NCBI GenBank assembly: GCA_002699185.1
Contig: PABG01000063.1
Location: forward strand, 1-35,361
Length of the DNA: 35,361 bases
Direction of reading: 5' to 3'
Origin: Gammaproteobacteria bacterium
GTDB taxonomy: Bacteria > Pseudomonadota > Gammaproteobacteria > Thiohalobacterales > Thiohalobacteraceae
This document shows, one piece after another, positions 3,935 through 5,822 of this stretch (its first letter is position 1; each line of letters starts with the position of its first letter). The notes beneath the pieces were generated by a model. It did no database searches, was not told the DNA's origin, and saw only the letters and a list, made by a program, of their open reading frames with translations. Made by a program: the position numbers and the translations under genes.

Positions 3935-5822
3935 ATGGAAAACGACGCCGTCATCCCGATCGAGATCCTGTTCCAGAAGTCGGAGCTGGTGGTCACCTTC
4001 CTGATCATCATGCTCGGCATCGGCTTCGGCAACCTGCGCATCAAGGGCGTGGGCTTCGGCTCCAGCGGCGTGTTGATCGTGGCCATGATCGCCGGCTATC
4101 TGTACCAGTTCGAACCCATTGTCATCCTGCAGGACCTGGGCATCGTGCTGTTCCTGCTCAGCATCGGCCTGGAAGCCGGCCCCAGCTTCTTCCGCGCCTT
4201 CAAGCAGCACGGCCGGCGTTTCATCACCAATGTGGTCGTCCTGCTGGCCGTCGCCGGTGCGAACACGGTGGGCATCATCGCGCTGGCCGGCGTCCCCATC
4301 GGCGTGGGCCTGGGCCTGTTCGCCGGCGCCTTCACCTCCAGCCCGGCATGGTACTCCTTCAACATGATATCGACGGGTTCAGCGAGGCGATAAGCGGCCA
4401 GATGCAAGGCGCTTGCCCGCCGGGGTAGACATCTACCTCAAGGGCAAGCAACGCGGCAGATGGCCACTTATCGCTTCGCCCGGAGGGAGCCTGCGAGCGG
4501 CGCCATTGCCGCGTTGCAGCCCTTGGCAAGGGTCATACCATTGCCTGCGAGCTGCGCCTTGCACTGGCGCCGCTCACAGGCTCTGAACCCGTCGATATCA
4601 TGTTGAAGGAGTACGAGTCAGCGCACTGCAGTTCAGCCCCGAGGAGGAGGTCATCTTCGGTTATGGCGTGGCCTACCCCTTCGGCCTGCTCGGGGTGATC
4701 CTGTTCATCACCCTCGCGGTGAAACTCCTGCGCCCGACCATGGAGGCCGAGCTGCGCGGCCGCACCCAGCTGCATACCGGCGTGTACAAGCTGCAGAACG
4801 AGGAATTCGCCGGCAAGCTCATCCGCGACATCGACTTCTTCCAGGACCACAACGTGGTGGTCTCCGGCATCCTGCGCGATCTGAACATGCGCACCGCCAG
4901 CGGCAGCACCGTGCTGCTGCCGGGCGACATCGTGCGGCTGGAGGGCATGGCCGAGGACGTGAACAAGGTCGGCAGCACCCTGGGCGTGGAGGTGCAGGAG
5001 AGCTTCGACGAGAACGCCGAACTCGACACCCGCTCCATCGTGGTGGAGAACACCTCGGTGGTGAACCGCAGCCTGGGTGACCTGGACATCCGGCTGCGCT
5101 ACAACGTCTCCCTGACCCGCATCATGCGTGCCGGCGTGGAATTCGTGCCGCGCCAGGACCTGGCACTGGAATACGGCGACGTGGTGGTGGCCGTGGGTAC
5201 GCCCTACCAGCTGGACCAGCTGGAACTGTTCCTCGGCCACGAGCACCATACGGTGCAGCGCCGGGTGGACATCGGCTCGCTGGCCGCCACCCTGTTCCTG
5301 GCCTTCGCCATCGGCGGCATCATCATCCCCCTGCCCGGGCTGGGGCCCTTCTCGCTGGGCCTGGCCGGCGGCGCGCTGGTCGCGGGGCTGGTGTTCGGCC
5401 ACTTCGGGCGCATCGGCAATTTCATCGGCCGCTTCCCGCGCAACGCCACCGCGGTGCTGCGCGAACTGGGCCTGGCGCTGTTCTTCGTGCAGGTGGGCTT
5501 CGACACCGGCCAGAGCTTCGTCGAATCGCTCGACTACCAGGCCATCTACTACGCCTTCTATGCCGTACTGTTCGCCGTGGTGCCGATGCTGGCCAGTTTC
5601 CTGTTCGGCCACTATGTGATGAAGATCCCGGTCAGCGAATGCTTCGGCGTGATCTGCGGCGGCATGACCTTCACTCCGGGGCTGGACATCATCCGCCAGA
5701 CCGACAACTCCGATCATCCGGTGGTGGCCTACTCCTCGGTCTATCCGGTGGCGGTGATCCTGGTCATCGCCCTGGTTCAGGGCATGTACCTGGCGCTGGT
5801 CACGCTGGGCGCGGTGGAATAA
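3935..5822 (+). pseudogene. AspT/YidE/YbjL-type (AAE family) transporter, split by an insertion
   Basis: Inner-membrane transporter of the aspartate:alanine exchanger family: two hydrophobic halves with TrkA-C (RCK_C) regulatory domains between them. The N-terminal half (3935-4348, about 138 aa, from MENDAVIPIEIL) runs to the conserved GLFAGAFTSSPA turn. Reading then enters an inverted-repeat element and stops at the TAA 4391-4393. The rest resumes after the element as SALQFSPEEEVIFGYG in another frame. It contains the TrkA-C region (about 4740-5240) and five or six C-terminal TM helices, ending at 5822. Together the halves give about 540 aa, close to the usual family length. A GTG at 4668 could allow separate translation of the second half, but the first membrane half would be missing. 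Probably inactive. Confidence 0.85.
4351..4614. mobile_element. 264-bp MITE-like element with 32-bp terminal inverted repeats and two internal hairpins
   Basis: The element interrupts the AAE transporter gene. Its ends (4351-4382 and 4583-4614) are perfect 32-bp inverted repeats beginning GTACTCCTTCAACATG. Between them lie two adjacent imperfect palindromes. Hairpin A (4382-4480) has arms GCGAGGCGATAAGCGGCCA / TGGCCACTTATCGCTTCGC and the apical stem GGTAGA-CA-TCTACC. Hairpin B (4487-4583) has arms GAGCCTGCGAGCGGCGCC / GGCGCCGCTCACAGGCTC. The whole can therefore fold as a terminal stem with two side hairpins. It has no convincing coding sequence. No clear target-site duplication is visible; the terminal TA at 4352-4353 and 4612-4613 would fit a TA duplication, but this is not proven. 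Confidence 0.85.

Follow-up and report, generated by a model that had tools for sequence, protein, structure and literature searches.

The window, the whole 35,361-nucleotide stretch that was analysed, contains an AspT/AAE-type transporter gene that is split by a noncoding segment at positions 4351–4614. The 5' part of the gene (3935–4350, + strand) carries an Asp-Al_Ex domain (PF06826; 100% of query 1–138), and the 3' part (4617–5822, + strand) carries PF06826 together with TrkA_C (query 138–538). Given that the transporter is uninterrupted in two genomes of the same genus, G009 and G010, the segment is an insertion. The initial annotation had located the split between GAFTSSPA and SALQFSPEEE, in agreement with the intact G009 orthologue, which reads GAFTSSPA-LV-SALQFSPEEE across the insertion point. 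It had also held that presence of the segment in all orthologues would speak against a mobile element; the orthologues in G009 and G010 lack it. The 5' transporter frame enters the element and stops at 4393.

The element is 264 bp in length and has no open reading frame of its own. A left arm (4351–4382, + strand) and a right arm (4583–4614, – strand), each of 32 bp and perfectly complementary, enclose two long hairpins. Hairpin A (4383–4479) is a unit read on the + strand, with a match to covariance model R1 at 4378–4479 (E = 1.5e-12), and hairpin B (4487–4582) is a unit read on the – strand, with a match at 4487–4587 (E = 2.1e-25). The 7-base spacer between them, CCGGAGG (4480–4486), has the form CC-NNN-GG in nearly all full copies. 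The boundaries and anatomy given initially were thus right. Subsequences common to the two hairpins had been pointed out as a hint of a duplicated ancestor, which understated the relation: hairpin A is homologous throughout to the reverse complement of hairpin B, and this inverted pair backs such an origin. The dinucleotides next to the arms, TG (4349–4350) and GA (4615–4616), occupy the position of TA in other copies and are regarded as decayed.

Folding of 4351–4614 with RNA parameters gave –187.2 kcal/mol, compared with –100.3 ± 4.8 for 200 dinucleotide shuffles (z = –18.0, none of the 200 as low), and yielded a stem plus two hairpins. With DNA parameters the fold was also stable (z = –15.6), yet hairpin A paired partly with hairpin B. 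The cloverleaf described at the outset is therefore the RNA optimum, and it was not reproduced with DNA parameters.

Further copies and target site

A second copy lies on another contig of the same genome (L002 1501–1765, corresponding to G000:C92:14561–14825), in the opposite orientation and with 91% identity. It interrupts a TrpB2-like (PALP-family) gene that is intact in eight further genomes from the family. Absence of any second copy had been named as a sign against mobility; this full copy and those in relatives settle the point. G009 contains four more full copies with the arm type of the window and three with other arms, and G001 contains about 20 copies of a related element whose arms are of another type, those copies that were read being almost identical. 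Four arm types, 30–33 bp long and with TTCAG or TCAG at the end, were recognised across this genus and the sister genus. Arms with at most three mismatches from the window type were found in three other genera within a sample of 369 genomes of the class, as well as in Zhongshania and one named MAG.

For a wider search, we used a covariance model of one half-unit, derived from 15 halves in which 27 of 38 pairs show double changes. Because a joint alignment (A1) put two half-unit subtypes out of register, the model was confined to one of them (A2). Applied to the 369-genome sample of the class, it detected the family in 110 genomes, corresponding to 87 of 272 genera. In a phylum-level sample of 398 genomes, searched at a stricter limit, 78 were positive, some of them belonging to other classes. 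Searches of plasmid and phage collections gave no match, and a search of Rfam 15 gave only subthreshold hairpin noise, nothing exceeding the gathering score of a family. No published description of these sequences or of IS630 MITEs with a similar structure was found in the literature covered, which did not extend to ISfinder and most subscription papers.

The arms of a given element resemble each other more closely than they do those of other elements. Over 28 positions, arm mismatches averaged 0.33 within an element and 3.27 between elements in this genus, and 1.90 within and 8.47 between across genera. The arms of the two copies in the present genome differ from one copy to the other, with each difference compensated on the partner arm so that both pairs are perfect. 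The inner ends of the arms differ recurrently, one being like TTACGGATTCAG and the other like TTGCGAGTTCAG (L134, L136, L138, L139, L218, L219, and L225), and the arms are therefore not simply homogenised.

TA directly adjoins the arm at 36 of the 58 left ends and at 46 of the 58 right ends, mostly, and in most lineages, in the context C-TA-G. The nearly identical copies in G001 have TA on both sides and flanks that are otherwise unrelated; because these TA dinucleotides lack the CTAG context, a 4-bp CTAG duplication that had been considered was dropped in favour of TA. At one site in G009, the corresponding empty site in G010 fits in length once a single 2-bp copy is removed, a comparison to be read with the empty sites being 10–20% diverged and the window copy itself having TG and GA. 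IS630 is said by Tenzen and Ohtsubo (1991; cited in PMC2170065) to prefer TA within CTAG. Duplication of TA is a property of IS630-family elements (PMC2170065).

That the segment is a dispersed functional RNA gene or host regulatory element, and not mobile, would fit with its strong covariation, conserved loops, and extreme RNA fold score. Two protein genes are interrupted in this genome, however, and the copies have unrelated flanks, terminal inverted repeats, and TA ends. Given the empty sites in relatives, such a gene is refuted as the sole explanation, and we regard it as extremely improbable.

Probable IS630-family ends

Full-length IS630 elements elsewhere in the class have terminal inverted repeats that resemble the arms. 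The repeat of the G206 element, CTAGTACATCGACCAGTTTATATTGACGG, matches an arm in G315 at 20 of 26 positions and the window arm at 16 of 26; that of the G272 element, CTAGTAGTCCTTCAATAAGATAAATTAGG, is the best for the window arm, at 17 of 26; that of the G117 element, CTAGTGTCCTGTCCCGTTAATTCGT, matches an arm in G103 at 19 of 26; and that of the G318 element matches arms in G094 at 18 of 26. For these four elements, none of 500 shuffles was as good. The transposases of the G206 element (split in two frames) and the G117 element contain DDE_3 and HTH_32 domains. The MITE is present in 10 of the 16 genomes that contain a close relative of the G206 transposase, compared with 100 of 353 without (p = 0.006), although the 16 genomes were grouped by hand, the genomes are not independent, and the corresponding value for all 41 IS630-positive genomes is p = 0.06. 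We had initially attributed the different arms to unrelated transposons, a reading that the comparison of terminal repeats replaced with that of different IS630 subgroups.

A search for IS630 transposases (PF13358) detected none in G000 (79% complete), G009 (91%), or G010 (100%), nor in most of the element-rich genomes tested, and no full insertion sequence with identical terminal repeats was found in a carrier genome. Since this genus yielded no such transposase, a partner is inferred; an exactly matching IS630 element would bear the terminal repeat GTACTCCTTCAACATGATATTGACGGGTTCAG. In G001, with its many nearly identical copies, the multicopy resident IS630 has another terminal repeat. The full-length relative with a transposase that had been anticipated is thus represented elsewhere in the class, by IS630 elements with resembling ends, but not in this genus. 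The same core is found between arms that match different IS630 subgroups, and the hairpin unit was not seen in the IS630 copies inspected; these two observations together argue against simple descent by deletion from a parent insertion sequence.

The suggestion that an element without a transposase is moved in trans is borne out by the empty sites, further copies, TA ends, and matching IS630 repeats, and mobility through an IS630-type transposase is, from these sequence comparisons, well supported. As a whole, the element is very likely a MITE with IS630-family ends that would be mobilised in trans by a transposase of this type and that contains a two-hairpin core. The ends would serve as IS630-family (Tc1/mariner-type, DDE) terminal inverted repeats recognised in trans, and the transposase would excise the element and paste it at TA, preferably within CTAG. 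The enzyme might have been supplied by an IS630 element that was later lost from this genus, or it might have been acquired transiently.

The G206 element (L152 1366–2614) is an IS630-family element with perfect 33-bp terminal repeats and a transposase in frames of 161 and 206 amino acids; the split lies near a T-run/A-run and may reflect either programmed frameshifting or decay. Four 57-bp remnants of the COOH-terminal end of a G206-type transposase were seen in G315 (contigs C1, C24, C35, and C48), the genome whose MITE arms match the terminal repeat of the G206-type transposon. Two candidates for an autonomous partner were rejected. The first, in G214 (L126) with a spacing of 1.5 kb, consists of a full and a half element around an open reading frame that by eye lacks transposase features, and the second, in G077 (L127, C76) with a spacing of 5 kb, is a contig whose two halves mirror each other about the element, which probably reflects an artefact of assembly.

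Structure and strand signal of the core

The core consists of two homologous hairpins in inverted orientation and measures 198–204 bp between the arms in 55 elements, with one further copy, L025, carrying an insert. Such an insert, of about 24 bp and containing GCGCCTACTGTTGGTGC or its complement, is located in one hairpin of L025, L030 (G009), and L226 (G272), where it occupies a comparable position although the elements and genera differ.

Standard pairs make up 95.6% of the pair cells in 129 distinct half-units, compared with 64.7% after shuffling, changes on both sides were found in 35 of 38 base pairs, and the covariation score was 0.778, compared with 0.055–0.091 with the partners slid, these figures leaning towards the covariance model to which the alignment was fitted and the counts coming from related, and so not independent, copies. 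The weakly paired motifs GCAAGGCGC/GCAACGC and GCMGG/CAAG are kept while the surrounding stems change. Given that the shape is maintained while most letters of the stems have changed, the fold itself, and not only the ends that a transposase needs, appears to matter.

When the halves are taken in their own reading direction, G.U cells outnumber A.C cells by 340 to 40 overall, and by 144 to 19 in one half and 141 to 9 in the other. At least four wobble cells are present in 16 pair columns, whereas at least four A.C cells are present in one. The excess is partly located in three pairs, without which the counts are 171 and 31. When the outer stem is aligned naively, without gaps and in register for Watson-Crick pairs alone, the excess shrinks to 94 against 26 and is one-sided, mostly 5'T-3'G. 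The inverted arrangement of the halves means that the strand favoured in one is opposite to that favoured in the other. The tolerance of G.U and avoidance of A.C suggest selection on a folded single strand, with opposite strands being selected for the two halves. Such a preference would be without reason for a double-stranded DNA palindrome or under pure template-switch correction, and it would be expected if each half folded as RNA or single-stranded DNA (ssDNA). The initial annotation had proposed that the structure could be excised as ssDNA or matter as RNA; class-wide covariation favours a folded single strand, which may be either RNA or ssDNA.

Among known mutational processes is the correction of quasi-palindromes by template switching in replication, and a plain IS630 MITE with a functionless interior might owe its stems to this process alone. 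Arms that are near-perfect within elements though different between elements are as such a process would leave them. Conserved unpaired motifs and internal loops persist, however, the core is of fixed length with fixed arm asymmetries, and correction would remove mismatches without favouring G.U over A.C on opposite strands of the two halves. We therefore consider a functionless interior unlikely, although it deserves some weight.

HUH Y1 enzymes leave no target duplication. Recognition of the hairpins as ssDNA by such an enzyme (RAYT), in the manner of a REPIN or BIME, would account for an inverted pair of homologous strand-specific hairpins, and Y1_Tnp genes were detected in 20 of 22 carrier genomes. 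No Y1 match was obtained in G000 or G109, both of which are incomplete. The element has TA at both ends and DDE-type terminal inverted repeats matching those of IS630 elements, and no observation requires Y1_Tnp. REPIN and BIME elements are defined by hairpins of 20–40 nt, a tetranucleotide foot, no target duplication, and a RAYT, whereas the hairpins here are of about 100 nt and the ends are TA. The GTAG/CGTC-tagged REPs resemble the element, as do REPINs and BIMEs, in being noncoding and in forming inverted pairs of homologous hairpins in many copies, but REPs measure 20–40 bp and are associated with Y1 HUH enzymes (PMC3733652). A REPIN-like origin is thus quite improbable.

With regard to the role of the core in an IS630-mobilised element, a functional structure of two hairpins read on opposite strands is a plausible, still tentative reading of the pairing and strand data, and the most likely function that we infer from them is that of a two-way RNA (or ssDNA) hairpin. 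Whichever side transcription enters from, the first hairpin reached would be in its working direction. If it functions as RNA, the core might act like REP, ERIC, or NEMIS transcripts, through attenuation or through RNA stability or cleavage, with the result that insertions would be better tolerated; alternatively, the hairpins might act as ssDNA during mobility. Somewhat more doubtful is the broader possibility of a phylum-wide selfish element set by its structured core, a two-way strand-specific hairpin device whose terminal repeats would have been changed to borrow transposases of successive IS630 subgroups.

Relation to known repeats and other occurrences of the arms

The nearest precedent is RUP (repeat unit of pneumococcus), for which mobilisation by IS630-Spn1 has been proposed and which is likewise short, noncoding, and highly paired, with IS630-like ends and a TA target (PMC2229807, PMC3049150). 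It differs in its length of 107 bp, its 9-bp terminal repeats, and its restriction to Streptococcus pneumoniae and close relatives, and an inverted homologous hairpin pair and class-wide covariation do not feature in the parts of its description available to us (PMC2229807, PMC3049150). Correia/NEMIS and ERIC sequences are also noncoding MITEs with TA termini, and their transcripts form folded structures through 5'-3' pairing and influence the mRNAs next to them; Correia/NEMIS measures about 107–155 bp and ERIC 127 bp, long terminal repeats (24 bp) are present only in Correia, and neither contains a two-hairpin core (PMC2229807). CIR repeats of Caulobacter and Brucella share two long inverted repeats that form two arms and a linker, but they have no closing terminal stem, carry a GANTC motif at a terminal loop, and belong to Alphaproteobacteria (PMC2229807). 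IS630 and ISY100 resemble the element in the type of terminal repeat, TA duplication, and CTAG preference (PMC2170065) and are candidate sources of the transposase; they differ in being autonomous and in possessing a transposase gene, and the copies seen here are about 1.1–1.25 kb long and show no hairpin core. As far as the descriptions consulted go, none of RUP, Correia/NEMIS, ERIC, and CIR shows a strand-specific inverted pair of homologous hairpins, a constant core, or an exchange of end type.

MITEs are usually viewed as the debris of deletions, retained for nothing but their ends, whereas here the inside is constant and the ends change. If the core works, it would represent either an abundant undescribed bacterial RNA or ssDNA structure or a means of rendering insertions tolerable to the host. 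It also raises the question of a nonautonomous element that persists by switching transposases.

The arms also occur outside full copies. In Zhongshania aquimaris (L033 5354–6144), the window arm type flanks a 791-bp stretch with no open reading frame of at least 120 amino acids, which seems to be a different passenger carried by these ends. In two other places (L027 1501–1532 in G010 and L032 1959–1990 in CP070738.1), 32-bp arms stand alone at the ends of genes, with no hairpins, and seem to provide the TGA stop codon for the gene that approaches from the right; they may be deletion products or reflect a separate use of the arm sequence. Another multicopy repeat, containing GATGAGATTAGTGTTAACAGGCCCT, is dispersed in G010, G009, and G000 (left flank of L027, L066, and L083).
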